Origin: Leptolyngbya sp. CCY15150
GTDB taxonomy: Bacteria; Cyanobacteriota; Cyanobacteriia; RECH01
Reading direction: 5' to 3'
NCBI RefSeq assembly: GCF_016888135.1
Contig: NZ_JACSWB010000207.1
Span: 310,001-374,000, forward strand
DNA length: 64,000 bases
The notes beneath the pieces are model-generated. The model searched no databases, was not told the origin of the DNA, and saw only the letters and a program-made list of their open reading frames with translations. The position numbers and the translations under genes were made by a program. This document shows positions 12,089-60,554 of this stretch, one piece after another. Each line of letters begins with the position of its first letter. Position 1 is the stretch's first letter.

Positions 12089-12655
12089 ATGTTAACGAAT
12101 TTACAGTCATGGGCTTGGAGAACCACCATGAGAGCAAAACTGCTTCGCCAACCAGCCAACGCCGGCTTTACCCTGATTGAGGTTTTGGCAGTCGTGATTA
12201 TCGTGGGCATTCTGGCAGCGATCGCTGCTCCAGGATGGGTTGCCTTTGCCAATTCCCGCGAGGCTAATCAGCTTGCCGACCAAGTATTTCAGCGTATCCG
12301 CCAATCGCAAACTGATGCAGGGCGCTTGCGCAGCAATCAGGTAGTCGAGTTCAATGATGGAAATCCACCGGAGTTACTCTATGGCTCTGCAGGGGGTGGG
12401 GGGCGTAACACCGAGCTTTTGGGTGAAGGACGGCTGGCCAATGGAATGGCTAGCTTAGACGTCTTTGATGGCAACGGTGCCGAGGTCGATTCGGTCGTGT
12501 TTGACCCCAATGGCATCTTGGTCTCAGATGGCAATCTACCGATCACTGTGGTCGTTCAAGTGCCGGCAGATGGCTCTGGATCTACCCGCTGTGTGATCCT
12601 CAAAACGTTGCTGGGCGCATCTGAACTTGCCCAGGGTGATGCCTGCACCCCTTAG
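12089..12655 (+). CDS. Pseudopilin of GspH/FimT type, third gene of the hps cluster
   Basis: 188-aa pseudopilin with cleavage motif NAG/FTLIEVLAVVIIVGILAAIAAPGW, the pattern typical of GspH/FimT minor pseudopilins. The conserved helix that follows (ANQLADQVFQRIRQSQTDAG) also fits. By position it corresponds to HpsD of the Nostoc cluster; the identity is inferred from order. A second in-frame ATG at 12128 would give a shorter leader (MRAKLLRQPANAG) and may be the true start. The stop codon coincides with the left edge of a dispersed repeat (12651-12776). No glycosyltransferase genes follow, unlike the longer Nostoc hps locus. Confidence 0.72.
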   Translation: MLTNLQSWAWRTTMRAKLLRQPANAGFTLIEVLAVVIIVGILAAIAAPGWVAFANSREANQLADQVFQRIRQSQTDAGRLRSNQVVEFNDGNPPELLYGSAGGGGRNTELLGEGRLANGMASLDVFDGNGAEVDSVVFDPNGILVSDGNLPITVVVQVPADGSGSTRCVILKTLLGASELAQGDACTP

Positions 12656-12776
12656 GAATGCAAGACAGAAGAACGAAGATAGAAGAGCGAAGATAGAAGA
12701 ACGAAAAGGAATTCTAGGACAAACCAGGTTTCCCGCCTCAGCACCTAGGCGGGTCACTTAGGCCTCAGAGTACTAG
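12651..12776 (+). repeat. Dispersed CTAG-bounded heptad/hairpin element, copy 1
   Basis: Left boundary CTTAG (degenerate CTAG) overlaps the TAG stop of the pseudopilin gene. Six heptads follow, of types AAGACAG, AAGAACG, AAGATAG and AAGAGCG, then the conserved AAAAGGAATT. Next is a hairpin CCCGCCT/AGGCGGG with an 8-nt loop, and the element ends CTCAGAGTACTAG. It is related to four other copies in this window. No coding capacity. It resembles a MITE or a short tandemly repeated cyanobacterial repeat, and may also act as a 3'-end element for the hps transcript. Confidence 0.85.
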
Positions 12777-21072: not shown

Positions 21073-23085
21073 ATGAACATTCAATTTGGTCGAGAGATTT
21101 GCGGACATCTGCACAGCGCTGAAGAGCGTGAATGGTTAGTCACCAACGGCATCGGTGGCTATGCCTCCGGCACCGTGGCTGGTCTGCTGACCCGTCGCTA
21201 CCACGGGGTTTTGATTGCTGCTCTAAACCCACCGGTGCGGCGCACGCTGTTGGTGACCCAGCTCAGCGAGACTCTGGAATACGACAGCAACTACTTTCCC
21301 CTACACACCAGCCGCTGGACGAACGAGCAGGTGGATCCCACAGGGTATAACCACATTCAGCAGTTTGCCCTGGAGGGCAGCATTCCCACCTGGACATTTG
21401 CCTGCGCTGATGTGCTGCTTGAGAAGCGGATTTGGATGGAGCAGGGAGCCAATACCACCTACGTGTCTTACCATGTGAAGCGATCGCCCCAGCCGATCAA
21501 GCTCTACCTCAAGGTGCTCACCAACTACCGCGATCATCACAGCAGTACCCAGGTCGGCTTCTGGAAAATGTCGATCGAGGCAGCCGAGCACGGCGTTAAG
21601 GTGACGGCTTTCCCCAAGGCGCAGCCGGTCTATGTGCTAGCCGAGCAGGCTGAGGTCTATCTTTGCAACGAATGGTACCAAGATTTTAATCTCGCCCAAG
21701 AACACTATCGCGGGCTCCCAGCCCATGAAGATCATCTCCATGTGGCAGATTTGGCCATCACCCTAGAGCCAGGGCAAACGGTGACTGTGGTGGCTACAAC
21801 CGATGCCAATGCCAGCCTCAATGGTCAAGAGGCGATCGCCCGCCAACGAGCCCACGAACAGCACCTGCAGGAATGCTGGGCCTCCACCTCCCATAGCCAA
21901 ACAGCTCCCGACTGGATGCAGCCCCTGGTTCTAGCTGCCGATCAGTTTATTGTGAAGCGATCGCTCCCCGAGGAACCCAATGGCCGCAGCATCATCGCTG
22001 GCTATCCCTGGTTTAACGACTGGGGGCGCGACACCATGATCAGCCTGACTGGCCTGACCCTCTACACCGGGCGATCGGACATTACCGCCACCATTCTGCG
22101 CACCTATGCCGGCTACCTCGACCAAGGCATGTTGCCCAATGTCTTTCCCGATCTGGGCAAAAAACCTGGCTACAACACCGTTGATGCCGTGCTGTGGTAC
22201 TTCGAAGCCATTCGCGCCTACTATGCCGAAACGGGGGATCTGGAGCTAGTGCGCGACCTATTTCCCTTGCTGCAATCGGTGATCGACTGGCACCAGAAGG
22301 GAACTCGCTTCCAAATTCAGGTGGATCCCGATGACGGCCTGCTCTATGCAGGACAGCCTGGCAGTCAGTTGACCTGGATGGATGCCAAGATTGGCAAGTG
22401 GGTGGTCACACCTCGGGCAGGTAAGCCGGTGGAAATCAATGCCCTCTGGTATAACGCCCTCGGCACCATGGCCCAGTTGGCGATCGCCCTCGGTAAATCT
22501 ACTGAGGACTATCGAGCCCTGGCCCAGCAGACTGGAAAAGGATTCCAGCGTTTTTGGAACCCAGAGTATGGCTATTGCTACGATGTGCTCGATCCATTGG
22601 ACATGGAGGAACATGACGCATCGCTGCGCCCTAACCAACTACTGGCGATCGCCTACCCCCATAACTCCCTAGGTCTAGCCCCCTTACTCACCCCCGAGCA
22701 ACAAAAAGCCGTGGTGGATGTCTGTAGCCGTAAGCTGCTCACCTCCCACGGTTTGCGCTCCCTCAGCCCCGATGATGAACGCTACTGCGGTCACTATGGC
22801 GGCGGCTCTCGCGAGCGGGATGCCGCCTATCACCAAGGTACGGCCTGGGGTTGGCTGCTCGGCCCCTTGGTGCAAGCCCACCTCAAGGTGTATGGCGATC
22901 CTCAGCAAGCCCTGGCCTATTTAGATCCCATGGCTAGCCAGCTTCGCGCCCAGTGCATCGGCTCCCTAGGCGAAATTTTCGACGGGGATCCACCCATGCA
23001 TTCCCGAGGAGCAATCGCCCAAGCCTGGACGGTAGCCCAGGTGATCCAGGGCTGGGTGGCGATCGCCAACGCATCGGCATCGTAA
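21073..23085 (+). CDS. Glycogen debranching enzyme (amylo-alpha-1,6-glucosidase family)
   Basis: 670-aa GDE-family protein. The N-terminal domain begins with EWLVTNGIGGYASGTVAGL and RRYHGVLIAAL (residues about 18-50), the substrate-domain signature of the archaeal-type debranching enzymes. The C-terminal (alpha/alpha)6 domain carries IIAGYPWFNDWGRDTMISL (residues about 305-323) and the HQGTAWGWLLGP motif. It is expected to release glucose from alpha-1,6 branch points of glycogen in the cytosol. It ends 26 bp before the L,D-transpeptidase gene on the same strand. Confidence 0.9.
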   Translation: MNIQFGREICGHLHSAEEREWLVTNGIGGYASGTVAGLLTRRYHGVLIAALNPPVRRTLLVTQLSETLEYDSNYFPLHTSRWTNEQVDPTGYNHIQQFALEGSIPTWTFACADVLLEKRIWMEQGANTTYVSYHVKRSPQPIKLYLKVLTNYRDHHSSTQVGFWKMSIEAAEHGVKVTAFPKAQPVYVLAEQAEVYLCNEWYQDFNLAQEHYRGLPAHEDHLHVADLAITLEPGQTVTVVATTDANASLNGQEAIARQRAHEQHLQECWASTSHSQTAPDWMQPLVLAADQFIVKRSLPEEPNGRSIIAGYPWFNDWGRDTMISLTGLTLYTGRSDITATILRTYAGYLDQGMLPNVFPDLGKKPGYNTVDAVLWYFEAIRAYYAETGDLELVRDLFPLLQSVIDWHQKGTRFQIQVDPDDGLLYAGQPGSQLTWMDAKIGKWVVTPRAGKPVEINALWYNALGTMAQLAIALGKSTEDYRALAQQTGKGFQRFWNPEYGYCYDVLDPLDMEEHDASLRPNQLLAIAYPHNSLGLAPLLTPEQQKAVVDVCSRKLLTSHGLRSLSPDDERYCGHYGGGSRERDAAYHQGTAWGWLLGPLVQAHLKVYGDPQQALAYLDPMASQLRAQCIGSLGEIFDGDPPMHSRGAIAQAWTVAQVIQGWVAIANASAS

Positions 23086-23111
23086 AGACTTTTATTCATG
23101 CATCCAACATC

Positions 23112-23705
23112 ATGACCCTGTTGCACCCTTCCAGGTACCTCGTTGGTCTCGGTCGAGCTGTGGCGATCGCCCTCCTACTGAACGGTGGGGCAGCGATCGC
23201 CGAGGGACGACCGGCTGAACCAGGACAGGGGAACCTTAGCCCCGACCAGGTCACCCTCTCCCAACCCGATCTGCCCGCGCTGGGAACCTGGGATCTTTAC
23301 CTACCCGAGGAGCAGATTCAGCCCCGTATCCTCATCCGTCTCAGCGATCGGCGGGTTTACCTCTACCACGGGGATGAGGTCGTGGCCAGCTATCCCGTCG
23401 CTATCGGCCATCCCGACACCCCCACCCCCACCGGCACCTACGAAGTGTTTCAAATGGTAGTTGATCCAGCCTGGCAAAGCCCTTGGACAGGAGAGGTGCA
23501 TCCGCCAGGGCCCAACAGCGCCCTGGGCGTTCGCTGGATTGGCTTTGCCGAGATGCCCAACGGTGTCATTGGTCTCCACGGCACGCCGACGGTTTCATCC
23601 ATTGGTCAAGCCGCTTCCAATGGCTGTGTGCGCATGCACAATGCCGATGTGATGGCCCTGTTTGACCAAGTTGGCGTCGGCACTATGGTGGTCGTGGTTC
23701 CCTAG
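23112..23705 (+). CDS. L,D-transpeptidase (YkuD domain), exported
   Basis: 197 aa with an N-terminal signal-like segment (GRAVAIALLLNGGAAIAEG). The YkuD domain starts with ILIRLSDRRVYLYHGDE, and the catalytic motif is HGTPTVSSIGQAASNGCVRM with His near residue 156 and Cys near 171. It would cross-link peptidoglycan (3-3 links) or modify it in the periplasm. The start is taken at the ATG at 23112, since the longer frame overlaps the debranching gene. Its TAG stop lies in the CTAG boundary of repeat copy 2. Confidence 0.88.
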   Translation: MTLLHPSRYLVGLGRAVAIALLLNGGAAIAEGRPAEPGQGNLSPDQVTLSQPDLPALGTWDLYLPEEQIQPRILIRLSDRRVYLYHGDEVVASYPVAIGHPDTPTPTGTYEVFQMVVDPAWQSPWTGEVHPPGPNSALGVRWIGFAEMPNGVIGLHGTPTVSSIGQAASNGCVRMHNADVMALFDQVGVGTMVVVVP

Positions 23706-23812
23706 CGCCACAAGACAGAAGAAAGAAGATAGAAAAACGAAAAGGAATTTCAGGACACATAAGGTTTCCCACCTTAGCAACTAGGCGGGTTACGTCCGCC
23801 TCAGAGTACTAG
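23702..23812 (+). repeat. Dispersed CTAG-bounded heptad/hairpin element, copy 2
   Basis: The left CTAG contains the stop codon of the L,D-transpeptidase gene. Only four heptads are present, the shortest of the family. In the core the first stem is mismatched (CCCACCT against AGGCGGG), while the second, alternative stem AGGCGG/CCGCCT is perfect. It ends CTCAGAGTACTAG, and its last CTAG is also the first CTAG of the adjoining 86-bp element. Confidence 0.88.
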
Positions 23813-23894
23813 GGCGTGTTTTAAAACTCATCCAAACCCCGATTCTCTCGTACGAAAGATCAAGAGATTTAGCAGGTTTTAAAACAGAGCCTAG
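23809..23894. mobile_element. 86-bp MITE-like element with TGTTTTAAAAC inverted ends
   Basis: Both ends carry CTAG. Inside, the left end GGCGTGTTTTAAAAC and the right end (reverse complement GCTCTGTTTTAAAAC) form imperfect terminal inverted repeats with 12 of 15 bases identical. CTAG duplication and this size fit a non-autonomous element mobilised by a transposase with a YTAR target, such as IS5-group elements. No transposase is present in the window. It adjoins repeat copy 2 and shares its CTAG. Confidence 0.6.
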
Positions 23895-25498: not shown

Positions 25499-25616
25499 CT
25501 AGTACTCTGAGGCGGACGTACCCCACCTAGTTGCTAAGGTGGAAAACCTGGTTTGTCCTAGACTTCCTTTTCGTTCTTCTGTCTTCTATCTTCGTTCTTC
25601 TATCTTGCGTTACTAG
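25499..25616 (-). repeat. Dispersed CTAG-bounded heptad/hairpin element, copy 3 (inverted)
   Basis: Reads on the minus strand: CTAGTAACGCAAGATAG, five heptads, AAAAGGAAG, then the hairpin CCACCT/AGGTGG. The AGGTGG arm pairs fully with CCACCT, whereas copies 1 and 5 use CCGCCT/AGGCGG, so both sides of one pair have changed together. It ends CTCAGAGTACTAG. This is the only copy whose left boundary does not overlap a recognisable gene end. Confidence 0.88.
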
Positions 25617-47967: not shown

Positions 47968-48037
47968 AGCGTCACATCCTGATCGATCTGATCAATTGTT
48001 TATGCTCAGTTTATCAGGACTGGTTGACGGACAAAAT

Positions 48038-48092
48038 TGAAGACCCTCACCCCAAACCCCTCTCCCAGAGCGGGCGAGGGGCTTTGAAAGCA
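48038..48092. repeat. Dispersed intergenic repeat, copy A
   Basis: About 55 bp containing CCCTCACCCCAAACCC, CGGGCGAGGG and TTGAAAGCA. An inverted, slightly shorter copy (CTCTCCC missing) lies at 53111-53156. Sequences of this style are common between genes in cyanobacteria; no function is assigned. Confidence 0.75.
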
Positions 48093-48138
48093 AGTGAACG
48101 TTCTTGCTACCCTTGTGGGGATAGGGGATAAAGATGGG

Positions 48139-53016: not shown

Positions 53017-53110
53017 GCATCAATCCTGATGGACTGATGACCCATCGTTTTCCCCTCATCCCCCAGCCCCTTCTCCCACAAGGGGAGCAGGGGAGCAGGA
53101 AAGTTTATGT

Positions 53111-53156
53111 GCTTTCAACCCTCGCCCGTTCTGGGTTTGGGGTGAGGGACTTCAAG
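53111..53156. repeat. Dispersed intergenic repeat, copy B (inverted relative to 48038)
   Basis: Reverse complement reads TTGAAGTCCCTCACCCC, AAACCC, CGGGCGAGGG and TTGAAAGC, matching copy A except for a short internal deletion. It lies between the LapA/GGDEF gene and the PRC-barrel gene. Confidence 0.75.
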
Positions 53157-53196
53157 GTTTGTCTGTTAACCAGGAATCAATCTGAGACTAACAAGC

Positions 53197-54145: not shown

Positions 54146-54269
54146 CTAGTACTCTGAGACGAAGTAATCCGTCTAGTTGCTAAAGCGGAAAACTTTGGTT
54201 TTCCTAGAATTCCTTTTCGTTCTTCTGTCTTCGTTTTTCTATCTTCGTCCTTCTGTCTTACGGCACTAG
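54146..54269 (-). repeat. Dispersed CTAG-bounded heptad/hairpin element, copy 4 (inverted)
   Basis: Read on the minus strand: CTAGTGCCGTAAGACAG, six heptads, AAAAGGAATT, then the core. The left CTAG holds the TAG stop of the DUF4912 gene. The first stem is weak (CCGCTT against AGACGG), but the alternative second stem AGACG/CGTCT is perfect and differs from copy 2 on both sides of the pair. It ends CTCAGAGTACTAG. Confidence 0.88.
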
Positions 54270-55833: not shown

Positions 55834-57048
55834 ATGAAAATCTTGGTGCTCAATGCCGGTTCCAGCAGTCAGAAAAGCAGTCTGTATGATTTAACAGCCC
55901 CCTTGCCCCAGGATCCGCCTAAACCCATGTGGACAGCGCAACTGGATTGGGGTCGCCAGCCCGGCCTGGTGGATCTGAAGGTGCAGGGAGCGGCTGGTGT
56001 GCAGCGCTGGCAACTTCAGACATCGCCTAGCGAGGGCACCCAAATCATGCTGCAAACGATCTGGCAGGGCGAGCAGGCCGTCTTGCCCGATGCCAGCGCG
56101 ATTGATGGCGTGGGGCATCGGGTGGTGCATGGAGGGCAGGACTACAGCCAAAGTGTACGGGTGACCAAGGCGGTGAAGGAGGCGATCGCCCGTCTGATTC
56201 CCCTCGCGCCGGCCCATAATCCCGCCAATCTCAAGGGCATCACCGCGATTGAGGAGATTCTTGGAACCGACCTGCCCCAAGTTGCCGTGTTTGATACCGC
56301 CTTCCATCGCCAAATGCCCGCCGCCGCCGCCACCTATCCCATTCCCTACGCCCTCACCCAGCAAGGCATGAAGCGCTACGGTTTCCACGGCATCAGCCAT
56401 CGCTACTGCGCCCAGCGAGCTGCCCAATTGCTAGAACGGCCCCTAGACAGCCTGCGGTTGATCACCTGTCACTTGGGCAACGGGGCATCCCTGGCGGCGA
56501 TCGCCCAGGGGCACAGCGTGGATACCACCATGGGTTTCACGCCCCTAGAAGGCTTGATGATGGGCAGTCGCTCGGGTTCGGTGGATCCCGGTCTCCTGAT
56601 TCATCTCCTGCGCCAAGGAGACTATGGCGTGGATGACTTGGATCGATTGCTGAATCGCGAATCCGGCTTGTTGGGCGTTTCCGGAGTCTCGTCTGATATG
56701 CGCGATGTTCTAGCCGCGATCGCCACCGGCAACGAGCAGGCCCAGCTTGCCCTGGATGTCTATATCCATCGCCTGCGCTACTACGTAGGCGCTATGCTCA
56801 TGAGCTTGGGGGGGCTGGATGGTCTGGTGTTCACGGCGGGCATTGGGGAGCGATCGCCCGAGGTACGAGCGGCTGTTTGTGAGTCCCTTGGCTTCCTCGG
56901 CGTCAGGTTGGATGGCGATCGCAATCAAGAGAGTCCTGCCGATGCCCTCATTTCCACCCCAGATTCCGCCGTGCCGGTGCTGGTTATTCAAACCCAGGAA
57001 GATTGGGCGATCGCTCAAGAGTGCTGGCACCTGCTGGAGCATTCCTAG
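55834..57048 (+). CDS. ackA: Acetate kinase
   Basis: 404-aa ASKHA-fold kinase interconverting acetate + ATP and acetyl phosphate. Family motifs are ILVLNAGSSSQKSSLYDL at the N-terminus, GHRVVHGG, VAVFDTAFH, ITCHLGNGASLAAI, DTTMGFTPLEGLMMGSRSGSVDPG and FTAGIGERSPEVR. All expected active-site segments are present. Its pathway partner phosphotransacetylase is not in the window. The TAG stop lies in the left CTAG of repeat copy 5. Confidence 0.95.
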   Translation: MKILVLNAGSSSQKSSLYDLTAPLPQDPPKPMWTAQLDWGRQPGLVDLKVQGAAGVQRWQLQTSPSEGTQIMLQTIWQGEQAVLPDASAIDGVGHRVVHGGQDYSQSVRVTKAVKEAIARLIPLAPAHNPANLKGITAIEEILGTDLPQVAVFDTAFHRQMPAAAATYPIPYALTQQGMKRYGFHGISHRYCAQRAAQLLERPLDSLRLITCHLGNGASLAAIAQGHSVDTTMGFTPLEGLMMGSRSGSVDPGLLIHLLRQGDYGVDDLDRLLNRESGLLGVSGVSSDMRDVLAAIATGNEQAQLALDVYIHRLRYYVGAMLMSLGGLDGLVFTAGIGERSPEVRAAVCESLGFLGVRLDGDRNQESPADALISTPDSAVPVLVIQTQEDWAIAQECWHLLEHS

Positions 57049-57182
57049 TACCGTAAGACAGAAGAACGAAGATAGAAGAACGAAAACAGAAGAACGAAGA
57101 CAGAAAAACGAAAAGGAATTCCAGGAAAAACAAGGTTTCCCGCCTCAGCCATAGGCGGGTTACTTACCCCTCAGAGTACTAG
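57045..57182 (+). repeat. Dispersed CTAG-bounded heptad/hairpin element, copy 5 (longest)
   Basis: CTAGTACCGTAAGACAG, then eight heptads, AAAAGGAATT, a perfect stem CCCGCCT/AGGCGGG with 7-nt loop, and the end CTCAGAGTACTAG. The outermost CTAGTAC and GTACTAG form a 7-bp inverted repeat. The left CTAG holds the ackA stop codon. It lies in opposite orientation to copy 4, the two flanking DUF4912 and ackA. Confidence 0.9.
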
Positions 57183-60258: not shown

Positions 60259-60554
60259 CCTGCTCCCGGCATCCATGTAAACCTAGTAAACCTACGGGTG
60301 GAATCCACGGCGCAAGGATGACAACCTCGCCATTCAGTCCCAATCATTGAATGGCTATAAGAACGCCAGATTTCCACTCATAATGATTGGCAAACAACAC
60401 TCCTGCGAGCTTGATTCTCTCGTAGCTTGGGTTAGCGTCAGCGTAACCCAACGAAATCTAAGCTGGTGCTGGGTTTTACGTTGCTCCACCTAGCCTCGGC
60501 AACAAGGTTGGTCAGTCAACCAGCTCATAACCTCATCCCTACAAAAATCAGGAC
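60259..60554. other. Intergenic region between the convergent NurA and linker genes
   Basis: About 300 bp containing a palindromic repeat (60427-60451). No gene or RNA recognised; the leftward terminator of the linker gene lies at its right edge. Confidence 0.45.
60427..60451. repeat. Palindromic intergenic repeat
   Basis: TTGGGTTA/TAACCCAA, an 8-bp perfect stem around GCGTCAGCG. The motif with flanking GTAGCTTGGGTTAGCG resembles palindromic repeats I recall as widespread between genes in cyanobacteria. Only one copy was noticed here. Confidence 0.65.

Follow-up and report, generated by a model that had tools for sequence, protein, structure and literature searches.

What does it mean that a short repeat in the genome of Leptolyngbya sp. 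CCY15150 begins at the stop codon of an L,D-transpeptidase gene: does such an element seek out stop codons, or is it kept where genes end? We looked into this question in the 64-kb window around the locus, meaning the whole stretch of DNA that was analyzed (64,000 nucleotides, to which the coordinates below refer), then in the source genome as a whole (G000; 5.75 Mb in 304 contigs) and in other genomes. The window contains five copies of the element, with a typical length of ∼110 bp. A sequence-only reading had claimed that four of these hold the TAG stop of the adjacent gene in their left CTAG (CTTAG in copy 1, whose left tetramer is TTAG), and this proved correct: for copies 1, 2, 4, and 5, open reading frames (ORFs) and Pfam confirmed that a genuine gene terminates at the TAG within the left tetramer. 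With 82 of 657 non-genic CTAG sites lying on stops, four of five copies at stops have a chance probability of ∼0.001. The features are as follows.

12652..12776, plus strand: element copy 1, both tetramers counted; left TTAG is the stop of a pilin-like gene; empty in G002
12653-12655, plus strand: stop TAG of the N-methylated pilin-like ORF, in the left tetramer of copy 1
22953..23705, plus strand: L,D-transpeptidase (YkuD) ORF; its stop TAG (23703-23705) lies inside copy 2
23702..23812, plus strand: element copy 2, the copy first noted; the L,D-transpeptidase gene stops in its left CTAG; present in G000, G001, and G002
23712..23743, plus strand: tandem array of AAGAYAG AARAACG-type heptamers that follows the left end of copy 2
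23768..23789, plus strand: copy 2 hairpin, CCCRCCT-loop-AGGCGGG; covariation weak over 156 copies
23809-23894, no strand assigned: MITE2, a second palindromic CTAG-flanked repeat, occupying the right CTAG of copy 2; G002 lacks it at this site
25499..25616, minus strand: element copy 3, off any stop, upstream of fraC; empty in G001
54146..54269, minus strand: element copy 4; a DUF4912 gene stops in its left CTAG; empty in G002
54266-54268, minus strand: stop TAG of the DUF4912 ORF, in the left tetramer of copy 4
55834..57048, plus strand: acetate kinase ORF; its stop TAG (57046-57048) lies inside copy 5
57045..57182, plus strand: element copy 5; left CTAG is the stop of the acetate kinase gene; empty in G001

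A MITE-like element with tandem heptamers and a hairpin

Measured between the left TA and the right TA, the element is most often 107 nt long, and the 86 copies of that length gave the consensus TAGTACCGCAAGACAGAAGAACGAAGACAGAAAAACGAAAAGGAATTCCAGGACACACAAGGTTTCCCGCCTTAGCAACTAGGCGGGTTACTTCCGCCTCAGAGTACTAG. An array of 7-nt tandem units makes up the left half and the hairpin the right half, and the number of heptamers varies from copy to copy, giving length classes. As possible terminal inverted repeats, the two ends, GTACCGCAAGACAGAAG and GTACTCTGAGGCGGAAG, match at 11 of 17 positions when the consensus is compared by eye, and one degenerate pattern fitting both ends occurs at 116 places genome-wide, against 1 for a control pattern. 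All copies derive from one consensus, and the element is short, multi-copy, and devoid of a protein gene, as expected of a MITE. A profile search of G000 gave 87 matches at an E value of ≤0.01 and 82 at ≤1e-4 among the candidates scored; 81 copies were analyzed, weak partial matches and G000:C278:16033 being left out.

Covariation in the hairpin is weak (1,011 of 1,090 pair cells, versus 1,002 ± 2.7 after shuffling, with 5 of 500 shuffles reaching 1,011), and 16 double changes were found across copies. An alternative second hairpin sharing the middle arm was unsupported, its score being reached by 124 of 500 shuffles. RNA folds of the sense strand of two copies were weak or unremarkable (z scores of -2.4 and -0.4). 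No Rfam 15 family matched above its gathering score in the window, and near copy 5 terminator matches occurred at chance level only and no promoter was found.

A search of 59 genomes found the element in just three, all of one genus: G000, G001, and G002, the last of which we judge to be Leptolyngbya sp. DLM2.Bin15. Three of four genomes of the order have it. G001 and G002 both align to the window at ∼90% identity. We examined 66 of 90 matches in G002 and 22 of 24 in G001, and three copies cut by contig ends were dropped (two in G002 and one in G001). In another genus, Nodosilinea sp. P-1105 has two decayed right halves of the element (L145:60-118 and L139:4411-4440).

We then examined empty alleles, which support the earlier supposition that the element inserts at CTAG and doubles it, since they hold one tetramer. 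At the locus of copy 5, G001 is empty and its acetate kinase gene ends in the identical, single CTAG; at those of copies 1 and 4, G002 is empty and has the same stops. At the locus of copy 3, which is not a stop, G001 lacks the element and has just one CTAG, and at G000:C244:47234 the G001 allele is empty with the stop present (TTAG). Because empty alleles carry the stop, it predates the insertion at four of the five stop sites with an empty allele, and to that extent the idea that the upstream frame keeps its stop codon stands. It fails at the fifth, G000:C244:42296 (minus strand), where the element lies in the last codons and introduces a stop of its own, so that the protein ends three codons sooner than in the relatives.

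CTAG flanks both sides in 91 of the 146 copies with both ends scored. Such flanks fit a duplication of TA or of 4 bp alike, because CTAG is a palindrome that contains TA. One G002 copy, located inside a repeated unit, has CTAC on both sides and an uninterrupted twin of that unit at the same locus. This single CTAC/CTAC case favors a duplication that is probably of 4 bp, with 3 bp or TA only also possible. Nine pairs of TTAG on the left and CTAG on the right would fit TA only, yet several of their orthologues show CTAG. A TA-only duplication (the IS630 model), our first reading, was weakened by the CTAC/CTAC copy and further by the orthologues, according to which the variants with TTAG or TAA have often arisen secondarily. 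Excision footprints were considered as the cause of a stop-plus-2-nt spacing (TAG AC TAG) and dropped for lack of evidence.

Placement and orientation genome-wide

To place copies relative to genes, we used a codon-usage gene caller written for this analysis and run on 733 kb of G000 sequence. Control CTAG sites came from 466 kb of long G000 stretches: of 2,036, 82 were on a called gene stop, 575 between genes, and 1,379 within genes. In the same 466 kb, window included, TAG is the commonest stop codon (185/354) and CTAG the commonest stop tetramer (89/354).

Comparison of genome-wide copies with other CTAG sites, proposed in the sequence-only reading as the check on its claim, did reveal an excess at stops. 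In G000, the left end lies exactly on a gene stop in 40 of 81 copies and the right end in 5, one copy having both; the 44 copies with an end on a stop correspond to an odds ratio of 8.3 relative to non-genic CTAGs (Fisher p of 2e-16). The bias toward the left end is strong (39 copies against 4, p of 3e-8, the copy with both ends on stops being excluded), so that the element mostly reads in the direction of the gene it follows, and a test independent of the caller, which required an open frame of at least 60 codons ending at the left TAG, gave similar counts. The relatives have 24 left ends and 4 right ends on stops among 66 copies (G002) and 15 and 1 among 22 (G001), with one copy in each having both. 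No copy intrudes into a called gene body beyond the last codons. When the number of CTAG stop sites in G000 is estimated at ∼1,025 by scaling from the 83 in 466 kb, ∼4% of them carry the element in the same orientation (40 copies).

The arrangement of downstream genes is about equal at occupied and unoccupied CTAG stops (tandem to convergent, 18:22 versus 49:38). Convergent genes may share one palindromic CTAG as both stops, and an insert there gives each side a stop; G000:C217:84848 and a few others are of this kind.

The stop codon itself is not what sets occupied sites apart. We counted sense CTAGs by distance past the stop, in bins of 0, 1 to 12, 13 to 35, 36 to 100, 101 to 300, and >300 nt. 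The control sites numbered 83, 28, 62, 125, 178, and 101, respectively; the sense elements numbered 40, 7, 5, 2, 1, and 1 in G000 and 24, 8, 2, 2, 3, and 1 in G002. Occupancy at ≤12 nt relative to >35 nt gave odds ratios of 43 (G000) and 19 (G002), while 0 and 1 to 12 nt did not differ significantly (G000, odds ratio of 1.9, p of 0.21; G002, odds ratio of 1.0, p of 1.0), the G002 ratios resting on the G000 control sites. The cases at 1 to 12 nt include TGA and TAA stops. Since near-stop CTAGs are occupied about as often as those on stops, the common feature is the 3' end of a gene, in the sense orientation, and the exactness at stops arises largely because CTAG is the commonest stop tetramer. 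A target rule of insertion exactly at stop codons is therefore not supported: half of the copies lie off stops, and sites at 1 to 12 nt are occupied about equally often.

Retention, targeting, and other explanations

The age of the copies bears on how this pattern arose. Orthologous copies form 39 shared groups, of which 26 have a sense copy on a stop when any member is counted and 25 with one member per group. The proportion among the species-specific copies of G000 and G002, i.e., those absent among the copies examined in the other genomes, is lower (25/79; Fisher p of 4e-4 versus shared groups); some of these may in fact be shared, because only the matches stated above were examined (66/90 in G002 and 22/24 in G001). 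In the youngest G002 set (species-specific and at least 90% like the consensus), 4 of 27 copies are in sense on a stop, against 6.3% expected (p of 0.09). The young G000 set, which is small, goes against the age trend (5/10 on a stop), and a nearest-neighbor proxy of age gave no clear trend. The ratio of sense to antisense copies is 25:7 for species-specific copies versus 26:1 for shared ones (p of 0.06). The share on stops thus climbs with age, which indicates retention more than targeting; the pooled species-specific copies nevertheless exceed chance (25/79 against 6%, p of 9e-12), so targeting may contribute.

We lean toward the view that the element is a non-autonomous, CTAG-duplicating MITE and that its copies are preferentially retained when they lie in sense at the 3' end of a gene. 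We propose that a mini-transposon would insert at CTAG and double it, probably as a 4-bp target duplication, with new copies landing on non-genic CTAGs with a modest bias at most, as one young set of 27 suggests. On a CTAG stop, insertion would leave the end of the reading frame unchanged, as seen at four of the five stop sites with an empty allele, because CTAG carries its own TAG. With a palindromic target that has a built-in stop codon, the element could in this way enter the last codon of a gene and leave the protein unchanged. Copies with their heptamer end within ∼12 nt past the stop and in the direction of the gene would then outlast those in other placements or in the other orientation, in line with the age trend. 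As a selective reason, we infer that a sense element next to the terminating ribosome would be harmless or a mildly useful 3' untranslated region (3' UTR), putatively an unstructured AG-rich array followed by a hairpin, and that other placements would be lost more often.

Another reading, which we consider possible but not likely, gives the element an active part, either as a portable 3' UTR acting on the finished message or through insertion coupled to the termination of translation or transcription. In its first form, the AG-rich array and hairpin, lying in sense within about the reach of a ribosome from the stop, may affect how stable the message is, how its 3' end forms, or how the ribosome is released; the host lineage is assumed to lack Rho. 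The spread to dozens of genes would then be a mobile-element route to shared 3' ends. Stop-site copies and their hairpins are not measurably better conserved, which argues against a maintained RNA function: the hairpin is no better kept at stop-site copies (91% of pair cells versus 94%). The pooled median divergence of orthologues is 6.7% for stop-site copies (29 pairs) and 11.6% for others (10 pairs; p of 0.09), but this difference is not significant within any genome pair, and we rejected it as evidence of constraint.

The rival closest to retention is targeted insertion, in which the machinery would insert preferentially, and in one orientation, into a CTAG where a translated or transcribed gene ends, for instance by coupling to termination. 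The sharp gradient over 0 to 12 nt, the 39:4 orientation, the 25/79 already reached by species-specific copies, and the 5/10 of the youngest G000 copies all speak for it. The near-chance 4/27 of the young G002-only copies and the fraction that climbs with age do not, and because CTAGs next to TGA or TAA share in the excess, the machinery would not be reading a stop motif in the DNA; we are not aware of any DDE transposase coupled to termination in this way. We consider targeting possible but doubtful. Plain purifying selection, under which insertions in genes, promoters, and operons are purged and gene ends are simply what remains, brings no benefit into play and accounts for the sparing of gene bodies beyond the last codons, even though 1,379 of 2,036 control CTAGs are genic. 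It is unlikely, given that the excess is still 8-fold with genic CTAGs already excluded, that CTAGs at least 36 nt past a stop are equally non-genic and almost unoccupied in sense, and that orientation is left unexplained.

Two further explanations carry very little weight. The stops could be an artefact if the left TAG of the element created a new stop wherever it inserted in a gene, and G000:C244:42296 is one clear case. We scanned ten further stop-site genes (encoding a riboflavin kinase, an amidase, an FtsX-type permease, a T2SSE ATPase, and others), and a LuxR-type protein may be truncated at its end (44 of 57 GerE positions). In 7 of these 10 proteins, however, the domain is complete to the last or next-to-last profile position, the right flank retains CTAG, and the same stop in the empty alleles of four of five sites refutes the artefact as a general cause, which makes it improbable in the extreme. 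Still less credible is an immobile, inherited 3' UTR element passively lost in some species: its confinement to one genus among the 59 genomes sampled would suit this view, which is refuted by single-CTAG empty sites, near-identical copies at unrelated loci, and copies off gene ends.

Known elements and neighboring repeats

Descriptions of most bacterial mini-transposons go no further than calling them intergenic. Tandem 7-nt units are also found in the short tandemly repeated heptamers (STRR) of cyanobacteria; unlike in STRR, the heptamers here belong to a mobile element with fixed ends. IS630 reportedly prefers TA within CTAG, a likeness to the present element. The IS630/Tc1-mariner group, with IS630 and ISY100, has cyanobacterial members and duplicates TA only according to the available text of PMC2170065, while the CTAC/CTAC copy with its repeat twin favors 4 bp here. 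In its manner of insertion, the element is closest to IS5-type MITEs such as MITEPsy1 of Pseudomonas syringae, which, in the part of PMC3189936 at hand, is likewise ∼100 bp long and gene-free; it has terminal inverted repeats, is of the IS5-family type, and targets CTAG or YTAA with a 4-nt duplication. The present element differs from MITEPsy1 as there described by its terminal sequence, internal tandem heptamers, proposed sense retention at gene ends, and a partner insertion sequence that was not found.

Other systems resemble it in placement or build. ERIC/IRU is, from the available sections of the review PMC2229807, small, non-coding, and located in transcribed regions; its orientation to the gene matters for the upstream mRNA, with an RNase E site exposed in a ribosome-dependent manner, and a possible effect of the present element on the upstream message would be analogous. 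ERIC/IRU differs in its TA duplication, sequence, and host (PMC2229807, same sections). Coxiella QMITE2, as portrayed in the available portions of PMC5896051 and the review PMC10969869, lies mostly in 3' untranslated regions, with several copies overlapping gene ends by 1 to 10 bp, and has another element nested in it. It has variable repeats of 7 to 11 nt and a GTAG palindrome, unlike our element, and those portions describe no stop-codon rule or orientation bias. BrickBuilt of Porphyromonas gingivalis also carries a tandem-repeat array within a MITE but is strictly intergenic, 49 to 591 nt from genes, in the available text of PMC4596501. In the literature, covered in part, we found no MITE described as being retained at stop codons in a single orientation. 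Between species that are ∼90% identical, the presence and absence alleles form natural pairs that differ in whether they have a defined 3' UTR; these pairs can be used to ask about the fate of insertions at gene ends and the role of 3' UTRs in cyanobacteria.

We then searched G000 for a partner transposon. Among the places listed for the pattern that fits both ends, no orphan end with 0 or 1 mismatch was found, and therefore no intact partner is seen in G000; an autonomous partner may have been lost or may be unassembled. DDE_3 had four matches in G000, and element-like ends were not seen at the two loci read. A DDE_3-type (IS630-like) transposase at a contig end, G000:C244:1-900 (L075), adjoins a CTAG-like boundary, and its ends are unlike those of the element.

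MITE2, with inner ends GGGCGTGTTTTAAAAC and GTTTTAAAACAGAGCC, has 17 copies in G000, 6 of which are nested in the right CTAG of the stop-codon element; copy L322, flagged as nested by a loose match, was counted as non-nested after reading. Only 2 of the 11 non-nested copies are on a stop, which is near the rate of non-genic CTAGs and below that of the element (p of 0.05). Small as this control is, it suggests that a preference for gene ends is peculiar to the element under study and not a property of CTAG insertion generally.

The window contains further repeats. Dispersed repeats at about 48018-48120 and 53024-53173 recur in G001, and a repeat of ∼140 bp at about 60384-60523 occurs >30 times in G002 and many times in G001 and G003.
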